DNA from: a virus
Strand: one strand, 5' to 3'
Virus record (IMG/VR): IMGVR_UViG_3300020190_004843
Coordinates: 62,001-126,000 of that record
DNA: 64,000 bases
A program made the translations under genes and the position numbers. Below the pieces are notes generated by a model. The model was not told the origin of the DNA. It worked only from the letters and a program-made list of their open reading frames with translations, and ran no database searches. Positions 49,997 to 61,173 of this stretch are shown here, piece after piece (the first letter of the stretch is position 1; every line of letters starts with the position of its first letter).

Positions 49997-52003
49997 TTAT
50001 GCTAGATCCTTAATTTTCGGAGAAGCCCCTCTCTCATAGGAGTTTACCACTTTAGCAACTAAGTCCCCCGTCCCCCAAGTTTCTAAAGACGGACATTTGG
50101 ATATCTCTGAAGCACCACTATCATTTTTTAACCCTTGAACAATACAAGAGTATCTTCCATTTCTTAAAGTTTTTAGCGTTGCAACCATACCGTCCTCTTT
50201 CGAAAGATAATTTTGTACCCCTACTTTGTTCATGTTTGTAGAACCTGGTAATTTCCAAGTTGTATTGAATGGGTTATTTCTTCCTCCTTTACCTTCCGCT
50301 TGTCTCCACGCGTATAAAAATTTTAGATTTTCACTTGTAACAGGTGCATCTAATTCTTGTAACAATCTCTCATAGAAATTTTTATCTGTAATATTTCCTG
50401 TATCTATTTCTTTTTTTGTTTGGATTTTTGAGAGATCATTTTCTGAAAAATTTCTTATCACCAACATGGCTGCGAGATATCTTAAATCAAATCCATCGAT
50501 TTTTCCATCTGATGAAATGGAAACTGATTTTTGAAATTCTTTGGTTGCATTTTCTGTTTCAGGACCGAACTTTCCATCAACTCCCCATTTTGGTAAGGAA
50601 AATCCTAAAAATTGTAATGCGGTTTGAATTGCTTCAACTTCTTTCTCGTATTTTATATTTTTCGGATAGTACTGAAAAGACTTATTTGTTTCAGCAAGCT
50701 TAATCAATTCCTGTATAAAGTTTGATTTTCCAACAATGTTAGATATTTCTTCATCCTCACTGAATTTTTTACCATACTTACCCAACTTCTGTCCTTGAGC
50801 ACATTTTAAACTTCCATCATCATTCAAAAATTCTCTTATATTGTGCCCCCATTCTATTCCAATGTGAACATGATCATATGAACTATTTGGGAAATCCATC
50901 ACGTATCCTAACAATTGACCACATTCTACTTTACTACCCTTTCTAATTTGTACTCCTTTTAAATGAGTGTAGTATATGTCAGGAAGACCATTATCGCTAT
51001 CAATTGTGAAGCTTTGACCATATAATTTTTTTCCCTTTGTTTTAATTACATCATCACCATAATCGGTAAATGTTTTTAACGTACCCCCCGCCAGAGCAAA
51101 AACAGGATCTCCGACAGATGCTTTAACATCCCATGCGTTTGCTGAAGCCCATCCACTTTGACCGGCATGTGCCCCATCCTTTGGTATACTCATATTCTCA
51201 CCTCCAAGTAAATGTCCACTTGAAGGTGCTTCTTGTAAAAATTTAATTATACTTTCTTTCAAAGATTGTTCTATTGATAATTCTTGATCTACGTAATTGT
51301 TGTATGTATTAAATAATTTTTCAATCATTCCGTTTCTTCTTAGAAATTTGAAAGTAAGATTTTCATAAGAAAGTTCACCCTCTTTTTCCAGTCCTGATTT
51401 TCTATATTCTTTGAGTTTGTCTTTTAAATCCCCAATCATCTTTTTCCCTTTTTCCAAATCATCTTTATCAAGTGACTCTAAAGCATTTTCGATTTTTTCA
51501 TTCCAGTTCTTCACTTTATCTTCTATGACAGACTTATCAATTTTATTTTTCATCTTTTCAGGTCTATTAATCCACTCATCATCCATAACTGAATAAACTC
51601 CTGAACTATCATGTTTCTCATCGTCACCCTGAGCATATAACTCTACATCATATCCGAAGATTTTGATGTCGTGTTTTTCGTTAAAAAGTTGTTTTTTTAA
51701 ATTAAATAACTCTTTGTAAGTTTCCTCATGTTTACCAAATTTTTTCAAATCTACAATAACATGAAGATCAAAGTCTGAATATTCTGACCAGTTGAAGTTT
51801 GATAAAGATCCTGTTAGAGTAATATCTTCAACAAAAGCATCTTCACCCAAATAATCAATGAATTGGTTAGCGATCTTCATCAAACCCTTTCTGACTTTGG
51901 GTTTCATTTTAGATTTTTTTGGATCATCAGAATTCTCCCAAATTTTTGGGTTAAGGGTGTCCCTCAGTGTAAAACTGTCAAGTATTTTTTGGAAATTACT
52001 CAT
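49997..52003 (-). CDS. Nucleotidyltransferase-peptidoglycan hydrolase fusion, 668 aa
   Basis: At least four modules in one protein. Residues about 55-125: Pol-beta-type nucleotidyltransferase, with TGSLSNFNWSEYSDFDLHVIVD (GS at 65-66, Asp77 and Asp79) and a third acid at about 119-121. Residues 240-258: helix ending FLQE before APSSG, a match to the prohead protease site. Residues 275-390: M23-like peptidase with Asp292, catalytic His347 in YYTHLK and HVH at 378-380, but Ala288 where the first zinc-binding His should be. Residues 452-515: peptidoglycan-binding domain (WGVDGKFGPETENATKEFQ). Residues 540-668: lysozyme-like domain with AWRQAEG. It is probably a virion protein acting on the cell wall at entry. 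A late octamer lies 4 nt upstream. Confidence 0.72.
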   Translation of the reverse strand: MSNFQKILDSFTLRDTLNPKIWENSDDPKKSKMKPKVRKGLMKIANQFIDYLGEDAFVEDITLTGSLSNFNWSEYSDFDLHVIVDLKKFGKHEETYKELFNLKKQLFNEKHDIKIFGYDVELYAQGDDEKHDSSGVYSVMDDEWINRPEKMKNKIDKSVIEDKVKNWNEKIENALESLDKDDLEKGKKMIGDLKDKLKEYRKSGLEKEGELSYENLTFKFLRRNGMIEKLFNTYNNYVDQELSIEQSLKESIIKFLQEAPSSGHLLGGENMSIPKDGAHAGQSGWASANAWDVKASVGDPVFALAGGTLKTFTDYGDDVIKTKGKKLYGQSFTIDSDNGLPDIYYTHLKGVQIRKGSKVECGQLLGYVMDFPNSSYDHVHIGIEWGHNIREFLNDDGSLKCAQGQKLGKYGKKFSEDEEISNIVGKSNFIQELIKLAETNKSFQYYPKNIKYEKEVEAIQTALQFLGFSLPKWGVDGKFGPETENATKEFQKSVSISSDGKIDGFDLRYLAAMLVIRNFSENDLSKIQTKKEIDTGNITDKNFYERLLQELDAPVTSENLKFLYAWRQAEGKGGRNNPFNTTWKLPGSTNMNKVGVQNYLSKEDGMVATLKTLRNGRYSCIVQGLKNDSGASEISKCPSLETWGTGDLVAKVVNSYERGASPKIKDLA

Positions 52004-52024: not shown

Positions 52025-52267
52025 CTAGAGTTTTTTGTAAGAAAACTTTTTAGCTATTTCACTCATAAAAAACTTACCCTGAGATTCAGCCATTCTGAAT
52101 TTGGTGTAAGTTGAGTGAGGTACATCGCTATATTCGTAAATCAATCCGTTATTGAATTCACAAACTAGTGATTTTAGTTCTGTGTCGTATGTTGTTTTAC
52201 TAATATTTGATGACACAATCTCGTTAATAATTTTAAATCCGTCAATCGTCTCTTTTTTTACTGCCAT
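52025..52267 (-). CDS. KTSC-domain protein (80 aa)
   Basis: A small protein with the KTSC domain pattern: SSNISKTTYDTELKSLVCEF, then NGLIYEYSDVPHSTYTKFRMAESQGKFF. The order is strand, N-G-x-x-Y-x-Y, V-P, then a helix with S-x-G-K-F-F-x-x-x-I. The domain is found alone or fused to nucleases and lysyl-tRNA synthetases; its biochemical role is unknown. The start overlaps the end of the gene upstream by 26 bp, so translation is coupled. Length is typical of stand-alone members. Confidence 0.75.
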   Translation of the reverse strand: MAVKKETIDGFKIINEIVSSNISKTTYDTELKSLVCEFNNGLIYEYSDVPHSTYTKFRMAESQGKFFMSEIAKKFSYKKL

Positions 52268-52616: not shown

Positions 52617-53012
52617 TTATAAAATCGAAATTTTCTTTTTCTCTTGTTTTTTAAATCCTGGAATAAATACAGTCAATAAACCGTCTTCGATTGTTGCTTC
52701 GATTAATTCTAGATTATGGTCTGTACCGAGTTTGAATTGTTTGTTTATGGATTTGTAAATTTCTTCCCCGTTCATCTTATATTTTCTTTTCCCTTGAATT
52801 GCCATAACACCGTCCTCGATTTCAACTTTTAAGTTTTCTTTGTTAAATCCTGGCGCTTCGAATAATAGGTAAGCTCCATCTTTAGTTTGATTAACCTCGT
52901 AATTGTTTTCGCTATCTGTTTTAGAGATTACAGAGGTTTTTGAGTACGTGTTAGGATTTTGGTTGAATAATCTTTCGAAGATTTCATTCAAATCGTTTGG
53001 TCCGTAAATCAT
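52617..53012 (-). CDS. Small heat shock protein (Hsp20/alpha-crystallin)
   Basis: An ATP-independent holdase that binds unfolding proteins. The 131-residue protein has the alpha-crystallin domain: AYLLFEAPGFNKENLKVEIEDGVMAIQGKR (strand with the L/F-x-x-P-G-x-x-x-E-x-L/I motif), then a loop and ATIEDGLLTVFIPG (the A-x-L-x-x-G-L/V-L-x-V-x-I/V-P motif). The N-terminal arm is short, containing FERLFNQNP. It is a common cargo of T4-like phages. It diverges from the ClpC-like gene across a 194-bp control region with three operator-like repeats, suggesting shared regulation. Confidence 0.9.
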   Translation of the reverse strand: MIYGPNDLNEIFERLFNQNPNTYSKTSVISKTDSENNYEVNQTKDGAYLLFEAPGFNKENLKVEIEDGVMAIQGKRKYKMNGEEIYKSINKQFKLGTDHNLELIEATIEDGLLTVFIPGFKKQEKKKISIL

Positions 53013-53206
53013 AGTAGTTTTTTTTTAAATTTATTATTTATTTAATAAATTATCAATATTGATGCCGTCTTATTTGTGATGACAATTTGATTGTTTAAAA
53101 TTAATCAATAAGACAAATTGACAGAAAAAAAAATAATTAAAGACAATTTGTCAAAATAATTGTTTATGTCCAGATTTTGATACATCTTTGAAAAAAAATA
53201 TCAAAT
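53013..53206. promoter_or_regulatory. Divergent hsp20/clpC control region with three repeats
   Basis: GACAATTTGAT at 53081-53091, GACAAATTGAC at 53112-53122 and GACAATTTGTC at 53142-53152 are variants of one near-palindrome (GACAA..TTGTC), spaced 31 and 30 bp, about three helical turns each. An 8-bp inverted repeat, GTCTTATT and AATAAGAC, spans the first two. They lie nearer hsp20 but between both starts, as expected for operator sites of a shared regulator. No late-type octamer was seen. Confidence 0.45.
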
Positions 53207-55216
53207 ATGAATGATCTTATTGATGACGAAGAAAAAATGATGAGTAAGAAAAAACAGACCTCTGATAGTCTAACACCTGTATTAGATAATTTTAGTAGAG
53301 ACCTAATCAAATTGGCAGAACAGGGAAAACTGGATCCTGTTATCGGAAGGGATAAAGAAATTATGAGAATTGCTCAAATTCTATCCCGTAGAAAAAAAAA
53401 TAACCCAATAATTGTTGGTGAGCCTGGTTGTGGTAAAACTGCAATTGTAGAAGGTCTCGCTATGAAAATTTATAATGGTGAATGTCCGAAGAATTTGATT
53501 GACAAAAGAATTGTGAACCTCGATATCAACTCAATTGTTGCTGGCACAAAGTATCGTGGGCAATTCGAAGAAAGATTGAAGGTAATCATTGAAGAGCTTC
53601 AAGCTAATCCAAATGTGGTTGTTTTTATAGACGAAATCCACACTATTGTAGGTGCTGGTAACGCATCGGGTTCATTGGATGCATCTAACATCTTCAAACC
53701 TGCTCTTTCTCGTGGTGAGATTCAGTGTATTGGTGCGACAACTTTGGATGAGTACAGAACCAATTTTGAAAAAGACGGAGCACTTGAAAGAAGATTTCAA
53801 AAAATTACGGTGGAGGGTGCTACAAAAGAAGAAACATTACTTATTTTAAAAAACTCGAAAGACAAATACGAGTCTTTTCACAAAGTAATATATCCCGATG
53901 GAGTGTTAGAAGCTTGTGTTAAATTAGCTGACCGTTATATTACTGATCGTGAGTTTCCCGACAAAGCTTTCGACATTCTTGATGAAGTAGGTGCTCGAAC
54001 TCAACTTGAAATGAAAATTCCAGTGGCTATTGAGGAGTTGAAACAAAAGGCTTCTGAGATCAAACAACTCAAAATGGACGTTGTTAAAAAACAGAATTAC
54101 GAACAAGCTGCAGAACTACGTGACAAAGAAAGAAAGATTATTGTCAAACTTGAAGACGCTAAGAGAAAGTTTGAAGAAGAATTGTCTCAATCGAAAAAAG
54201 AAATTTCTTTGGAGTTGGTTTATGAAGTTGTTTCCTCAATGACTAAAATCCCTGTCTCAAAAATGTCAATTGACGATACTAAAGCTCTTGTCAATTTAGA
54301 TTCTGTTCTAAAAGACAGAGTCATCGGCCAAGACGCCGCAGTTCTAAAAATTGTAAAATCAATTCGCAGAAACAGACTTGGTATCAAAGATCCAAATCGG
54401 CCTATCGGTTCTTTCATTTTCTTGGGGTCTACAGGTGTAGGTAAAACACATTTGGCTAAACAACTCGCAAAAGAAATCTTCGGTACGGAGGACTCTCTAA
54501 TCCGTGTTGACATGAGCGAATATCAAGAAAAACATACAATCTCAAAATTAGTTGGTGCCCCCCCTGGTTACGTAGGTTACGATGAAGGTGGTCAACTCAC
54601 TGAACAAGTCAAGAACAAACCCTACTCCGTAATTCTTTTCGATGAGATTGAAAAAGCTCACAAGGACATCTTCTCAGTTCTTTTACAAATACTAGACGAT
54701 GGTCATGTCACTGATAGTTTAGGAAGAAAGATAAATTTTAGAAATACCTTAATCATCATGACCTCAAATTTAGGTGTGAAAAAACTACAAGATTTTGGAA
54801 CTGGTATTGGATTCAATTCTTCAAAATACGGTTCTGATGAGCAGAAAAAGGAAATTCTTATAAAAGAAATGAAAAATTTTTTCTCTCCTGAGTTTTTGAA
54901 CCGTGTTGATGATATTATCACATTCAACGCATTGAAAGAAGATGATATTAGAAAAATAACTGAGATTGAAATCAAGAAATTAATTGTTCGGCTCCATGAA
55001 ATGAACTACAAAATATCATACGATCAATCTTTAGTGGATTACATCTCCAAAGTTGGGTATGATGAACTCTATGGGGCGAGACCTCTAAAAAGAGCAATCC
55101 AAGACAAAGTAGAGGATTTGGTTTCCGAGGAGGTACTCAAAGGTAATGTAAAGGAAGGGACACAATACAAAGTTATCGTGGACTGTGAAGAAATAAAACT
55201 AAAGAAAGGAAAATAA
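53207..55216 (+). CDS. ClpC-like AAA+ unfoldase lacking the N-domain
   Basis: A double-AAA+ Clp/Hsp100 ATPase of 669 residues that unfolds proteins, often feeding ClpP. D1 has Walker A at 71-78 (GEPGCGKT), Walker B VVVFIDE at 137-143 and the pore [10 protein letters not shown]. The linker (about 280-330) holds a UVR-type motif ([16 protein letters not shown]), as in ClpC, not the long ClpB coiled coil. D2 has Walker A GSTGVGKT (407-414), the pore loop [13 protein letters not shown], Walker B VILFDE and a GIGF loop (533-536) like the ClpP-binding IGF/VGF tripeptide. The usual double N-domain is missing; the protein starts about 25 residues before D1. It would therefore not use normal N-domain adaptors. 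Neighbours: hsp20, peptidase, tmRNA. Confidence 0.88.
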
Positions 55217-55244
55217 AAAAGGGGGTCTAAACCCCCTTTTTTTT
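55215..55244. terminator. Bidirectional terminator between clpC-like and peptidase genes
   Basis: AAAAAAGGGGGT pairs with ACCCCCTTTTTTTT around CTAA. It serves the plus-strand unfoldase and the convergent minus-strand peptidase gene, with T-tracts on both strands. Confidence 0.92.
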
Positions 55245-56082
55245 AATCCCATAATCTACCAATTTTTTGTGTGGGTACACTTTTCTTATAGTGTAACTTG
55301 TATCCTAAATTCTCAATCATTTTTCTACCCATATTGATTCCATTGAAAACATCTTCAACAACGACATATTCATTTTGTGAATGATAGTCGTAATAACCAA
55401 TAGAGAAATTGATACAAGAAAAATTGAATTTAGATCTAAGAGCCCATACGTCTGTATATGGGTGGGTCATATAATCCATGTCAGCATTTACCATACCTTC
55501 AGTCAATACTTGATCACACACTTTGAAAAATTCTGAATCTCTGTCAAACAGTTGTTGTCCAAAACATCTTTCTGTAATCATCCAATTTTCGGGTGCGTCA
55601 AATTGAATGACATACCCCACATCTTCGAAAAAACTATCATTAGCTTTTTGTGACCCGTGACAACCAGTTTCTTCAGAAGCGAAAAATCCTGCTTTGAGAA
55701 ATGGCATCTCTTTAAGTAAAGTTAAACAGGCAAAAACACCAGCTTTATTATCACCACCTATTCCAATCGGTAGACCCTGATTACTGTATGCTTTATAGGC
55801 TAATTTTATTTCTCCTTGTGCATTTGGAAGTTTTTCTTCACGAACATTGATTGTGTCTATGTTATGTACTGTGTCAGTGTGAGCAACAACACAAGGGTAA
55901 TAAAATCCTTTAGGAACCTCACCTGTTTTTTTTGTAACGTAAACGTTGTGACTTTTATCTACTTGGTAATCTAAACCCTCCTTTTTACACCAATTGATGA
56001 GATATTTGACCATCTCACCTTCTTGATAGGTTTTGGTTGGGACACTCAAGACAGATTTTAATAACTGTAAATCTTGATTCAT
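55243..56082 (-). CDS. M20-type metallopeptidase, short form (279 aa)
   Basis: A di-zinc exopeptidase. All metal and catalytic residues are visible: VAHTDTVH with His68 and Asp70, GGDNKAGVFACL with the bridging Asp111, ASEETGCHGS with Glu137/Glu138, FDAPENW with Asp162 and DYHSQNEYV with His234. The order and spacing are those of the M20 family (PepT, PepD, carboxypeptidase G2 relatives). Length is about 120 residues short of PepT, apparently because the dimerisation lid is reduced. It could be a di- or tripeptidase or a Gly-X-type exopeptidase finishing peptide breakdown. It is convergent with the unfoldase gene. Active-site intactness argues for a working enzyme. Confidence 0.8.
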   Translation of the reverse strand: MNQDLQLLKSVLSVPTKTYQEGEMVKYLINWCKKEGLDYQVDKSHNVYVTKKTGEVPKGFYYPCVVAHTDTVHNIDTINVREEKLPNAQGEIKLAYKAYSNQGLPIGIGGDNKAGVFACLTLLKEMPFLKAGFFASEETGCHGSQKANDSFFEDVGYVIQFDAPENWMITERCFGQQLFDRDSEFFKVCDQVLTEGMVNADMDYMTHPYTDVWALRSKFNFSCINFSIGYYDYHSQNEYVVVEDVFNGINMGRKMIENLGYKLHYKKSVPTQKIGRLWD

Positions 56083-56115
56083 TAGTAAAAATTTACTACA
56101 AAGGTAGGTAAAGTT

Positions 56116-57159
56116 TTACACATCACCAAAAGGTGAACCAAATAATTCTGGTTGATAGAGTAATTTGTAAAAATTCTCCTCAGAAACTTTTCTTGATATT
56201 GATTTCAAACCCTTTCTTAGAATCACTTCAATTTTCATATCATCTTTATCAAAGTCCTTAATTCTAAATGTTGCCCCTTTTAAATTGGGTAATTCATATA
56301 CAACACCAACCTTGAACTTCTTGGTAATTCTATCGTAAAGTTGTACAAACTCAATTATCCTGTCATCTTCCTCAACTCTATCTTTCATTTTATCAATCTG
56401 CCATGAAGCTTCTCTGTTAAAACTCTCTTTGTCAAAATTTGAATTGTAAGCCCATTCGTAACTCTCTTCAGACCAATTCCATCCGTGGTCCTCATCGTCA
56501 AAAATCGATTCGAATAAATCTTTGAAATTCAACCATATCTTACCATTTTTCACGTATAACATTATCAATTGGCCAACTGTGGTAGAAATTGTATCCCAAC
56601 TACGAACAACCTTGAATTCGTTTTTTTCCAAGACTTCAGATAACTCTTCATCAATTACACTTTTTGCTTTTTCTGCTGCCGATCTTTCGATTTCCGAGCT
56701 GTAATCACCAACTATATTGGTCGTTTCTCTTGTGAATACCTTCATCATTATTTCTGCAGCTCTTTTATTTGTCGGTTCCTCAGAGCCGAGCTCTTCGTAG
56801 TTAAATGCGGGATCAACATTTTTCAAAATGTATATTAGTGTATCGAGATTTTCATCGGATAGAACATTAAAAATATTATACCCTTCTAAGAAATCATTAA
56901 TAACTTGAGACTCATCCAAAAAACCCCAATTTTGATTTGGTGAGAAAATATTGTTCACGAAGTAGATATCGTCATGTGAAACTCCCAATCTTTTCAAAAG
57001 ATCATCGTCCCTTTGAAACTCGAATTGTATTTCAGTCAGTCCCTTAACTGAATTTTCAACAACTCTGTACACCATAGGATCGGCTCTTTCAATATCGTAC
57101 TTATCTGCCTGTCCTCTGACGTATTTCCTTAATGTTTGAAATAATTCACTTGATGCCAA
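56116..57159 (-). CDS. Hypothetical acidic protein (347 aa)
   Basis: Start taken at the TTG at 57159 (MASSELFQTLRKYVRGQAD), which lies 14 nt after a late-type octamer; the only alternatives in frame upstream are ATT or ATC codons. The protein is acidic and largely helical, with a Trp/Glu-rich centre (DEDHGWNWSEESYEWAYNSN) and a C-terminal strand-rich region (VGVVYELPNLKGATFRIKDF). Not recognised. It divides tmRNA (divergent) from the peptidase gene and could be a virion protein expressed late. Confidence 0.55.
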   Translation of the reverse strand: MASSELFQTLRKYVRGQADKYDIERADPMVYRVVENSVKGLTEIQFEFQRDDDLLKRLGVSHDDIYFVNNIFSPNQNWGFLDESQVINDFLEGYNIFNVLSDENLDTLIYILKNVDPAFNYEELGSEEPTNKRAAEIMMKVFTRETTNIVGDYSSEIERSAAEKAKSVIDEELSEVLEKNEFKVVRSWDTISTTVGQLIMLYVKNGKIWLNFKDLFESIFDDEDHGWNWSEESYEWAYNSNFDKESFNREASWQIDKMKDRVEEDDRIIEFVQLYDRITKKFKVGVVYELPNLKGATFRIKDFDKDDMKIEVILRKGLKSISRKVSEENFYKLLYQPELFGSPFGDV

Positions 57160-57173
57160 AACAATGATTTTAT

Positions 57174-57181
57174 TATAAATA
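57174..57181 (-). promoter_or_regulatory. Late-promoter-like TATTTATA
   Basis: Minus-strand octamer 14 nt before the TTG start at 57159, in the gap shared with the divergent tmRNA. Confidence 0.55.
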
Positions 57182-57190
57182 TAAATTTCG

Positions 57191-57222
57191 TTTGGATTAG
57201 AAACTATTTATTCTTACCTTTA
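57191..57222 (+). promoter_or_regulatory. Bacteroidota -33/-7 promoter for tmRNA
   Basis: TTTG at 57191-57194 and TACCTTTA at 57215-57222 (one mismatch to TAnnTTTG) are 20 bp apart, the spacing of the Bacteroidota primary-sigma promoter. Transcription would begin near 57228, about 15 nt before the mature tmRNA end at 57243. Confidence 0.6.
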
Positions 57223-57242
57223 AAAAAGTTATTTGAAATTAT

Positions 57243-57662
57243 GGGGATGAATGGAATTGATTGGTGTGTGTAGTTATAAGTGGCACGTAGGAGCTGAATT
57301 AACTCCTTAAAAACTAATTTGAAACGTAAATGGCGAAACTTTCGCTAAACTTTCTGCTATCGGTCTTATCCGTGAGGAAAGTGTTGTTGCAGCTTAATAG
57401 TTGAGAACAACGTCGGGTCGGCAAGGACATATAACCTAGGAACAGAAGTCCATGAGGTCTGACAAATACCACGTGATTAAGTTCAGAAAATTTGTCAGGA
57501 GGTGTTTTCGGTTCAATCCGACTTAATAGGAACCGACCACATTTGTAAGTTTTGATGGAAAAATAAGAACTTTCTATTTGTTGATTGAGAACCAATCAAA
57601 TAAACGTGTAGTCACTTATAGGTATCGCAAACAAGACGCGGGTTCGAATCCCGCCATCTCCA
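57243..57662 (+). ncRNA. ssrA: Transfer-messenger RNA (tmRNA) with a 21-codon tag
   Basis: Rescues stalled ribosomes by acting as alanyl-tRNA and then as mRNA for a degradation tag. The 5' end GGGGATG (57243-57249) pairs with CATCTCC (57655-57661), including the G3:U70 pair that AlaRS reads; discriminator A57662; CCA is not encoded. The T-arm is GCGGG-TTCGAAT-CCCGC. TATAAGTG near 57275 pairs with CACTTATA near 57612 (P2), and AGGAG with CTCCT forms PK1. The resume codon is GGC at 57332; the frame reads GETFAKLSAI...EESVVAA for 21 codons, then TAA TAG (57395-57400). Bacteroidota tags are usually about 9 residues (GENNYALAA type), so the tag is over twice the normal length. The VAA end still suits ClpXP-type recognition. 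Confidence 0.92.
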
Positions 57663-57827
57663 CAAAAAAATTTTCAATGTTTATCAGAGTGTTATATTCT
57701 GTTAAACATTTCTTAACATAGATGTTTGACAACTTGGAGGATTAAGGTTATACTTATTGGAGTATTGAATAGGAGAGATAGTTTGTGAAACATTATTTTT
57801 ACCAATCCCATATAGAAATTAAACAAG

Positions 57828-57885: not shown

Positions 57886-60800
57886 ATGAAAAAAACAATC
57901 ATGATGTCACTTTTATCCTTGTTCGTGACTCTCACATCTTTCGGGCAAATCACAACTTCTGCCCTGTCTGGTGTGGTGAAAAATGAAAAAGGAGATGCTT
58001 TAGTGGGAGCGTCAGTACACGTAGTTCACCAACCAACTGGTTCTGAATATCGTGCTACTACAAACAAAGTGGGTATCTTCACCCTTCCTGCTGTGCGTCC
58101 TGGTGGTCCTTATGTGGTTCACGTCTCGAACGTGGGTTATAAAAAGGAAGAACTTATCGATATCAACACAAACCTTGGTATTACAACTACCTTGAATATT
58201 GTGTTGATTGAAGATGCTAAGGTCTTGTCCGAAGTAGTTGTTAGTACAAACAGAAACAACGTTTTCAGTAAGGACAGAACAGGTTCGTCTCAGCAGTTTG
58301 GTAGAAGGGAACTTACTTCTGTTCCCATCACTGGTGCGAGAACAATTGACGGAATCACAAAGTACAACCCGATGGGTGACGGTCGTTCATTCGGAGCTGC
58401 TGATAGCAGACTGAACAATTTCACTATTGACGGTTCTCAGTTCAACAATGGCTTCGGTCTTGGTTCTTCAGCTCAGGCTGGTGGTAGAACCGGTTCGACT
58501 GCAATCTCTTTGGATGCGATTGACCAACTTCAAATCAACGTAGCTCCATTTGACATTCGTCAGAGTGGTTTTGTTGGTGCGGGTATCAACGCTGTAACAA
58601 GAAGTGGTACTAACAAAGTTGAAGGTTCTTATTATCAGTTCAACAGAGACAACCAACGTTATGTTGGTAACAACGCAAAAGGAACGACTGTAACAGCTTC
58701 CAAGTTCGAAGAAACAACAAGAGGTTTTAGATTGGGTGCTCCAATTATCAAAAACAAATTATTCATTTTTGGTAACTACGAAACACTAGAAAAAACTGAA
58801 CCTGGTACAACTTGGATTTCACAAGGTTCACCTTTGGCTGGTTCTCAAATCTCAAGAGTTTTGTATTCTGATATGAAAACTCTTTCAGATTTTATGAGAA
58901 CAAATTTTAATTATGAGACGGGTCCTTGGGAAGGGTACAACAACTCAAATAAGTCTGAGAAATTTCTCGTGAGAGCAGATTGGAACATCAACGACAAACA
59001 CAAATTGACAGCTCGTTATGTGTGGCACAACTCTGATGCGGAAATCAACATTTCCAATTCTCAGTCAGCAGGTGCTGGTAACAGAACCACACAATTTAAC
59101 GCGATGTCTTTCAAGAATAGTGGTTATATCATAATGGATAACACACGTTCAAGTGTCTTGGAGTTGAATTCAAAGTTCTCCAACACTGTTCACAACAATT
59201 TGATTGTTGGTTATGACAAACAAATTGAAAATAGAGCATATTTGGCAAAGATGTTTCCAACTATTGACATAATGAACGGTACCGCGACCTACACTTCGGT
59301 AGGTTTCGACCCATTCACACCAAGTAACAAGTTGGATTACAACACTTTCCACATTACAAATAACTTGACCAAGTTTATGGACAAGCATACATTTGTGGCT
59401 GGTGTAAATTTTGAAAAATATCGTTCTAATAACTTATTCTATCCCGCTTCAAACGGTGTGTATATCTTCAATTCTCTTGCAGATTTTTACACAGCTGCTA
59501 ATCAATCATTAGCAAACGGTGGTAGACCTTCAACTCTTGCTCCTGCAAGATTCCAACTTCGCTATTCAGCACTTCCTGGTGGAATCGAACCATTGCAAGT
59601 TTTGAAAACATCTCGACTTGACCTTTATGTTCAGGATGAGTATCAGTACAACGCTAACTTGAAACTTACTGGTGGTTTGAGAGTAGCTGTTATTGGGTTC
59701 GAAAACACAGCACTCGAAAACAAAGCTGTTACAGCAATGACTTTCGCTGGTGGTGAGAAATTCAATACAAGTGTATTACCAAAAACTCAGGTTCTTTTCG
59801 AACCAAGATTTGGTTTTAACTACAATCACAAAGGTCAGAATGATTTACAAGTAAGAGGTGGTTCAGGTGTATTCACAGGAAGACCTCCTTATGTATTTGT
59901 ATCTAATCAAGTGGGTAATAATGGTGTTTTGACAGGATTTATTGATGTATCAGGTCCGGCAGCTGCAAACTACGGTTTCACAGCTAACCCTAACCAATAC
60001 TTTATCCCCTCTACACCAACGCTTCCTTCTACTTTTGACTTAGCTTTTACTGATCCTAACTACAAGTTCCCTCAAGTATGGAAATCCAACCTTGCTGCAG
60101 ACAAGAAGTTACCATACGGATTTATTGGAACCGTAGAACTTATGTACAACAGATTTGTAAACGCTGTTCATTACTACAATGCTAACTTGGATGTTCCTGT
60201 GGGAGTATTCAATGGTCCTGACAAAAGACCCGTATTCGCAAGAAACGATGCTGGCGTAAGAGTAAATGACAACGTATCAATGGGTGCAGTTTTAACAAAC
60301 AGAAACGGAGCGTTTAACACATCCGCAACTGTGGAGTTAAAATACCCTGTACAGAAAGGTCTTTGGGGTTCACTCGCTTGGACTACATCACTTTCAAAAG
60401 ATTACATGAGTGCTGGTTCAATTGCTTCTGGTTCTTGGCAGTCAGCAAGAGCTATCAACGGAAACAATGACCTTCCTTTAGCTTTCTCTGATAACTGGAT
60501 TCCTAACAGAGTTGTTGGTCTTCTTGGTTATAAATTGGAGAATGGTGCAAAGAAAGGCGCTGGCGCTACAACAATCACATTAGGTTATGTAGGACAACAA
60601 GGTAACCCATTCAGCTACTTCGTAGCGGGTGACCTAAACGGTGATAGAGTAAATAACAATGAACTTATCTTTGTTCCAAACAAAGCTACGGACATCAAAT
60701 TTGCTCCATTCACATCAGGTGGTGTATCGTTCACTGAAGCTCAACAACAAGCTGCATTTGACGCATACATCGACCAAGACAAGTATCTCTCTACAAGAAG

Positions 60801-61173
60801 AGGTCAATACGCTGAGAGAAACGCTCTCACAATCCCAATTTTACAAAGATTTGATATCTCTGTACAACAAGATTTCTTTATTGACATCAAAGGTAGCAGA
60901 AATACATTCCAACTCAGATTGGATATCTTAAACTTCGGAAATATGTTAAACAAAGATTGGGGCGTATCTCAAAGAGCTACAAACCCTGCAATCCTTAGCT
61001 ATTCATCAACTAACACAGCTGGTGAACCTGTCTATAGATTGTCAACTCAACCAATCCTCAACGCAAACGGTACAACTTCTGTAGGTCTCATAAGAGACAC
61101 ATATCAGTGGAATACTTCAGTGTTTGATGTATGGCAAGGTCAACTCGGTTTAAGATATATCTTCGGAAGATAA
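57886..61173 (+). CDS. Oar-like TonB-dependent outer-membrane receptor
   Basis: A complete 1095-residue Bacteroidota-type TonB-dependent receptor. Residues 1-21 are a signal peptide (MKKTIMMSLLSLFVTLTSFGQ); residues about 25-105 a carboxypeptidase-regulatory-like domain (LSGVVKNEKGDALVGASVHV); a TonB-box-like LSEVVVSTNR follows at about 116-125; then the plug with SRLNNFTIDGSQFNN and a 22-strand barrel ending in LGLRYIFGR with a terminal aromatic pattern. It matches the Oar-like (OmpA-related, Cna-B/carboxypeptidase-containing) class in length and plan. Codon use is visibly richer in C-ending codons than its neighbours, suggesting recent gain from a host. It is not a virion protein by signal; it could alter the infected cell surface, block superinfection or import nutrients. 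Confidence 0.88.
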   Translation: MKKTIMMSLLSLFVTLTSFGQITTSALSGVVKNEKGDALVGASVHVVHQPTGSEYRATTNKVGIFTLPAVRPGGPYVVHVSNVGYKKEELIDINTNLGITTTLNIVLIEDAKVLSEVVVSTNRNNVFSKDRTGSSQQFGRRELTSVPITGARTIDGITKYNPMGDGRSFGAADSRLNNFTIDGSQFNNGFGLGSSAQAGGRTGSTAISLDAIDQLQINVAPFDIRQSGFVGAGINAVTRSGTNKVEGSYYQFNRDNQRYVGNNAKGTTVTASKFEETTRGFRLGAPIIKNKLFIFGNYETLEKTEPGTTWISQGSPLAGSQISRVLYSDMKTLSDFMRTNFNYETGPWEGYNNSNKSEKFLVRADWNINDKHKLTARYVWHNSDAEINISNSQSAGAGNRTTQFNAMSFKNSGYIIMDNTRSSVLELNSKFSNTVHNNLIVGYDKQIENRAYLAKMFPTIDIMNGTATYTSVGFDPFTPSNKLDYNTFHITNNLTKFMDKHTFVAGVNFEKYRSNNLFYPASNGVYIFNSLADFYTAANQSLANGGRPSTLAPARFQLRYSALPGGIEPLQVLKTSRLDLYVQDEYQYNANLKLTGGLRVAVIGFENTALENKAVTAMTFAGGEKFNTSVLPKTQVLFEPRFGFNYNHKGQNDLQVRGGSGVFTGRPPYVFVSNQVGNNGVLTGFIDVSGPAAANYGFTANPNQYFIPSTPTLPSTFDLAFTDPNYKFPQVWKSNLAADKKLPYGFIGTVELMYNRFVNAVHYYNANLDVPVGVFNGPDKRPVFARNDAGVRVNDNVSMGAVLTNRNGAFNTSATVELKYPVQKGLWGSLAWTTSLSKDYMSAGSIASGSWQSARAINGNNDLPLAFSDNWIPNRVVGLLGYKLENGAKKGAGATTITLGYVGQQGNPFSYFVAGDLNGDRVNNNELIFVPNKATDIKFAPFTSGGVSFTEAQQQAAFDAYIDQDKYLSTRRGQYAERNALTIPILQRFDISVQQDFFIDIKGSRNTFQLRLDILNFGNMLNKDWGVSQRATNPAILSYSSTNTAGEPVYRLSTQPILNANGTTSVGLIRDTYQWNTSVFDVWQGQLGLRYIFGR

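Follow-up and report, generated by a model that had tools for sequence, protein, structure and literature searches.

The window analysed here, 64,000 nucleotides of the virus record IMGVR_UViG_3300020190_004843, carries a cluster in which a ClpC-type AAA+ unfoldase, an M20-type peptidase and a transfer-messenger RNA (tmRNA) with a tag peptide of its own are encoded together, an association kept in all 72 distinct relative loci in which it could be scored. We put the probability that this cluster forms a phage-run route of ribosome rescue, tagging and degradation, relying on the SmpB of the host, at roughly 45%. The window corresponds to positions 62001-126000 of a 149,092-base linear record that covers only part of the genome; the same cluster occurs in relatives of 297-326 kb. 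The families of the capsid, portal and head protease place the phage in the T4 superfamily, and judging from its sequence it is a T4-superfamily jumbo phage of Bacteroidota, a receptor-like gene pointing to hosts of the Chitinophagaceae type.

Linkage of the unfoldase, peptidase and tmRNA genes

Relatives were collected as 160 loci from scans with the peptidase and the unfoldase, to which a third scan with a divergent unfoldase as query added more. Linkage was then scored in two sets, the first comprising 72 distinct loci, each extending 8 kb or more past the unfoldase in the downstream direction, and the second 43 dereplicated loci with flanking sequence on either side. Throughout the first set, peptidase and tmRNA accompanied the unfoldase within 8 kb, the tmRNA lying 2.0-6.3 kb from the unfoldase gene and on the same strand. 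All 43 unfoldase loci of the second set likewise possessed both partners; the peptidase was situated between unfoldase and tmRNA in 42 of them, and its strand was that of the unfoldase in 14 loci and the opposite one in 29. At one locus (L391 16920-19275) the whole block of tmRNA, 347-aa protein gene (p347) and peptidase was inverted relative to the unfoldase, its members still together.

A preliminary description of the window had proposed a four-part island of Hsp20, unfoldase, peptidase and tmRNA, and had named conserved co-occurrence and order among relatives as its test. All four items are present at the positions it gave, as confirmed by matches to Pfam, PHROG, RF00023 and ARAGORN, and the association and order of unfoldase, peptidase and tmRNA proved to be conserved; Hsp20, however, occurred in only 12 of the 43 dereplicated loci (0.28), and an island of four parts is not supported. 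Based on these co-occurrence counts, the core is composed of unfoldase, peptidase and tmRNA, with Hsp20 as an optional member. The other variable neighbours in the same loci were p123 (22, 0.51), p347 (25, 0.58), p497 (20, 0.47) and a TonB receptor (6, 0.14). The properties that had been ascribed to the single parts, namely a ClpP-type loop on the unfoldase, a complete set of metal ligands in the peptidase and an unusual tag in the tmRNA, were all borne out and found to be conserved. A gene at 56116-57159, between peptidase and tmRNA, had been overlooked, and the cluster thus contains five genes on both strands. This arrangement and a hairpin of terminator-like form that lies between the unfoldase and peptidase genes rule out a single operon. 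The hairpin (55217..55242), which was identified by reading the sequence, has the form GGGGG-TCTAAA-CCCCC with A and T runs at its flanks and separates the two convergent genes.

The tmRNA and its tag

The phage tmRNA gene (ssrA; 57243..57665, plus strand) is of the one-piece type and encodes the tag GETFAKLSAIGLIREESVVAA. It was matched by RF00023 with 85 bits (E 1.6e-31, cmscan) and by ARAGORN, and the Rfam tmRNA model aligns end to end with the window copy. When a family profile built from the phage tmRNAs was run on the first 160 loci, a tmRNA was recovered in 135, and no locus with 8 kb or more of sequence downstream of the unfoldase lacked one, whereas ARAGORN called 40 copies and sometimes misread the tag. 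Because ARAGORN misses most copies of this family, phage tmRNA surveys based on it will undercount; the survey of huge phages that reported tmRNA and SmpB among their genes called its tmRNAs with this program (PMC7162821).

The family comprises 129 full copies, 100 of them distinct. Among 25 relatives, two-sided changes (covariation) were observed in 33 of 45 consensus pairs, and the T-arm covaries; the middle of the molecule aligns poorly in the same relatives, as examined with RNAalifold, which is blind to pseudoknots. The G-U pair at acceptor position 3-70, the mark of alanine tRNA, is present in all 60 parsed copies, in 10 of them with a one-base offset. As ssrA genes are well known as sites of integration, and the tmRNA is followed by a gene (57886-61173) for a host-like receptor of the TonB type with 68% identity to Chitinophagaceae proteins, we considered whether the tmRNA might have been captured from a host or be what is left of an integration site at the edge of a prophage. 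This origin is next to impossible and was rejected, since phage-collinear genes lie on both sides of the tmRNA and run 25 kb beyond it, the tmRNA has a tag type of its own and a covarying structure, and its position is kept in all relatives.

Upstream of the tmRNA, the sequence shows a promoter-like element, TTTG-N20-TACCTTTA, that resembles promoters of the primary sigma factor of Bacteroidota (57191..57222, plus strand). The consensus of Bacteroidota promoters consists of a -33 element TTTG and a -7 element TAnnTTTG; of 101 relatives, 96 carry the -7 element ahead of the tmRNA and 64 have the complete -33/-7 promoter there. From this promoter type, transcription by the host polymerase, and hence early in infection, is predicted. 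The T4-late promoter motif TATAAATA is mildly enriched in the window (16 occurrences on both strands versus about 7 expected), and it precedes the tmRNA in 38 of the 101 relatives.

The tag reading frame (57332..57397, plus strand; ARAGORN coding part 90,158 within the gene) extends over 21 codons from the resume codon GGC to the first stop TAA, which is followed by TAG. Tags of the family have 21 or 22 residues and conform roughly to G-[NEKD]-[TV]-[FLI]-x-K-[ML]-x-x-[LIV]-G-L-x-x-x-x-x-V-x-x-A. The 21-codon tag occurs in 72 distinct nucleotide versions; G1, G11 and L12 are invariant among them, with G11 written in three synonymous codons (GGT/GGA/GGC) and L12 in five (TTA/CTT/TTG/CTA/CTC), which indicates that the peptide, and not the RNA alone, is held. 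The median dN was 0.46 against a median dS of 0.90, dN being below dS in 95% of pairs, and stop codons interrupt most of the other frames of the region. Purifying selection acts on the tag peptide, and the phage tag has the appearance of a conserved, translated sequence.

For comparison, 29 chromosomal tmRNAs of Bacteroidota were examined, four of which gave implausible ARAGORN tag readings. Host tags are mostly of nine residues, GxxxYA[LM]AA (..[YF]A[LM]AA), some of them cut to eight by ARAGORN. The phage tag is thus distinct from the host type, and this difference may bear on its fate. One alternative is that it shields rescued chains from host degradation or marks them for another fate, the phage tmRNA competing with that of the host and so blunting host quality control or an mRNA/tRNA-cutting defence. 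The tag indeed has no YA[LM]AA degron of the host type and is double the length of host tags, a minority of tags end in I, V or S instead of A, which also counts against the route proposed below, and the nearly invariant internal [LIV]GL has no counterpart in host tags. We nevertheless regard shielding as improbable, for alanine, preceded by small or hydrophobic residues as in known degrons, closes 67 of the 72 distinct 21-codon tags, and the tmRNA invariably has the genes of a degradation machine as neighbours. Separately, residues 10-12 of the tag, the [LIV]-G-L just mentioned, match the type of the ClpP-docking tripeptide of Clp unfoldases ([LIV]-G-[FL]), and this internal motif may take part in recognition.

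The unfoldase, ClpP and the proposed route

The unfoldase (53207..55216, plus strand, 669 aa) was identified by Pfam AAA_2 (E 2e-69) and ClpB_D2-small, and its best solved relative is ClpC of S. aureus (6em8, E 2e-223). Like bacterial ClpC, which works with ClpP, it has two AAA+ domains with Walker A and B, an M-domain region and a ClpP-docking loop, here GIGF. Unlike bacterial ClpC it has no N-domain, the part of ClpC that binds adaptors, because the alignment to 6em8 begins only at ClpC residue 146; ClpC proteins of host Bacteroidota, 56-57% identical to the phage unfoldase, are longer at 845-883 aa. The docking loop, x-[IVLM]-G-F, is kept in all 130 unfoldases.

The link to ClpP that this loop had suggested is strengthened by the relatives, which encode a ClpP of their own. 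In two sets of large relative records, the second including three of a more distant clade, ClpP was found in 17 of 19 and in 13 of 18, respectively, and alignment with E. coli ClpP revealed an intact Ser-His-Asp triad in all nine phage proteins aligned.

The peptidase (55243..56082, minus strand) was assigned as a putative M20-type di-metal dipeptidase/aminopeptidase, with a match to PHROG 'peptidase' (E 2e-33); its best solved relative is the M20 dipeptidase PepD, at a low score (2qyv, E 0.001). Across 112 sequences, conservation of the metal and catalytic residues H68, D70, D111, E137, E138, D162 and H234 is 97% or higher. Pfam M42 scored 19.6 bits, just under its cut-off of 23.2, and 'M20-like' would be the safe label.

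Taken as a route, the phage tmRNA would be charged with alanine by the host alanyl-tRNA synthetase and loaded with the help of host EF-Tu and SmpB; SmpB was found in only one of 19 large records, that of a 309-kb relative (L175, record G006). The tmRNA would then free ribosomes stalled on broken mRNAs during infection and add the 21-residue tag to the unfinished chains. Tagged chains would go preferentially to the phage ClpC-like unfoldase, such routing being expected since the tag ends in V-x-V/A-A in place of the YA[LM]AA that closes tags of the host type. The unfoldase, devoid of the adaptor-binding N-domain, would dock on ClpP, the phage's own in most relatives and that of the host for the phage of the window, and the M20 peptidase would break the peptides set free down to amino acids, to be used in the synthesis of phage proteins, with Hsp20 as an optional holdase. 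In favour of this route stand the fixed linkage, the tmRNA family with its conserved tag, the invariant docking loop, the ClpP of the relatives and the host-type promoter of the tmRNA. A stronger version, in which the 21-residue tag is a degron read only by the phage ClpC-type unfoldase, so that tagging and destruction run orthogonally to the host pathway and both rescue and amino-acid supply are taken over, is doubtful.

A number of observations, besides the minority of tag endings given above, speak against the proposed route. ClpP typically lies 20-50 kb downstream of the cluster, and it was not found in the 149-kb record of the window, a fragment of the genome, or in the 322-kb relative G062. 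At the syntenic ClpP slot of the window record there is a 108-base gap (G000 137949-138057), and as the closest relative (record of L009) encodes ClpP, the absence at this slot appears to be a lineage-specific loss; the phage of the window would depend on host ClpP unless the unsequenced part of its genome encodes one. Neither tmRNA nor peptidase was found near the unfoldase in distant huge phages, whose unfoldases are 53-59% identical, and in two of seven distant records searched whole, a tmRNA above the family cut-off was located away from the unfoldase. A related ClpA-like protein of RaK2 has virion genes as its neighbours, and by analogy the unfoldase may serve assembly. Finally, the M23 and KTSC genes on the other side of the unfoldase are conserved in 43 of 43 loci, just as peptidase and tmRNA are, and the linkage may therefore be in part plain inheritance of gene order.

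These last points lead to the chief rival, in which the block is inherited as such and its members have separate functions: the unfoldase as a chaperone of morphogenesis or remodelling, the tmRNA as extra rescue capacity with degradation by host ClpXP, and the peptidase in general nutrient recycling. Apart from the equal conservation of the virion-side genes, the head module (capsid, portal, terminase and head protease) adjoins the cluster, and the homologues in RaK2 and PA5oct are found beside virion or chaperone genes with no linked tmRNA. Against it, peptidase and tmRNA persist in every locus amid a changing set of flanking and intervening genes; neither the strand switch of the peptidase nor the inversion of the block has separated them; and the ClpP-docking loop is invariant, which an assembly chaperone would not need. 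We hold separate functions to be possible, and rate the phage-run rescue route above them.

Neighbouring genes and known systems

The M23 peptidase/peptidoglycan-binding lysozyme-type protein (49997..52003), next to the head module, and the KTSC-domain protein (52025..52267) are both encoded on the minus strand. The Hsp20 small heat-shock protein (52617..53012, minus strand), present in 28% of relatives, was matched by Pfam HSP20 (E 4e-13) and PHROG Hsp20, its alpha-crystallin domain by PF00011 with 49.7 bits. The intergenic region between Hsp20 and the unfoldase (53013..53206) contains, on reading of the sequence, the related short repeats GACAATTTG and CAAATTGAC, which are operator-like and are possible candidate operators.

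The 347-aa protein (56116..57159, minus strand) is conserved in 58% of relatives by alignment. A scan with the window's copy alone returned no relatives, whereas tblastn within the cluster loci revealed it to be widespread. Its AlphaFold2 model is confident (pLDDT 91.5); no PDB or viral fold match was obtained at E<=0.001, and no sequence family was found. Matches to AcrIIC4 were weak and unconvincing (E 0.02-0.03), and the protein was left unassigned.

Beyond the tmRNA, 57886-61173 (plus strand) encodes a full-length Oar-type TonB-dependent outer-membrane receptor of 1095 aa with a signal peptide and CarboxypepD_reg and beta-barrel domains. Its identity is about 68% with Chitinophagaceae proteins and 72-93% with the copies at four relative loci (L036, L056, L058 and L111). 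A phage-encoded TonB receptor may alter the host surface, by superinfection exclusion or receptor replacement.

In its components the cluster resembles bacterial trans-translation by tmRNA, SmpB and ClpXP, with a tRNA-like domain bearing the G-U pair, a resume codon, an in-frame tag and a stop; it differs in that the tag is distinct and longer, a ClpC-type unfoldase is encoded alongside, and SmpB would be supplied by the host. Complete tmRNA genes have been described in mycobacteriophages Bxz1 and Wildcat, in Bacillus phage G and in Pelagibacter and OM43 phages (PMC4131195, PMC9004378), but no linked Clp unfoldase and peptidase were described there, whereas here one structural family with a tag of 21-22 residues is fixed across a clade of Bacteroidota jumbo phages. 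A ClpA/ClpC-type unfoldase and ClpP occur in one genome in the jumbo phages Atu_ph07, PA5oct, AP-J-162 and the RaK2-like phages (PMC6102473, PMC7824862, PMC11242549), and Hsp20 is also known from jumbo phages (PMC7824862, PMC6102473); linkage to a tmRNA or peptidase was not reported for these, and the neighbours of the RaK2 unfoldase are virion genes. The preliminary description knew of no phage with all four items together; Clp proteins, Hsp20 and a tmRNA are reported side by side, though unlinked, from the genome of AP-J-162 (PMC11242549). Each component is already known in jumbo phages, while the fixed cluster and the private tag appear new; no description of the fixed unfoldase-peptidase-tmRNA cluster or of this tag family was found in the openly accessible literature, subscription journals lying mostly outside the search.

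The literature examined holds no tested answer as to why phages carry tmRNA. A clade in which the tmRNA is fixed beside an unfoldase and a peptidase, has its own tag and is often accompanied by ClpP turns this into a direct question, namely whether the phage unfoldase reads the phage tag. If it does, the two would constitute a new degron-unfoldase pair, and a virus would be seen to take over translation quality control as a unit.

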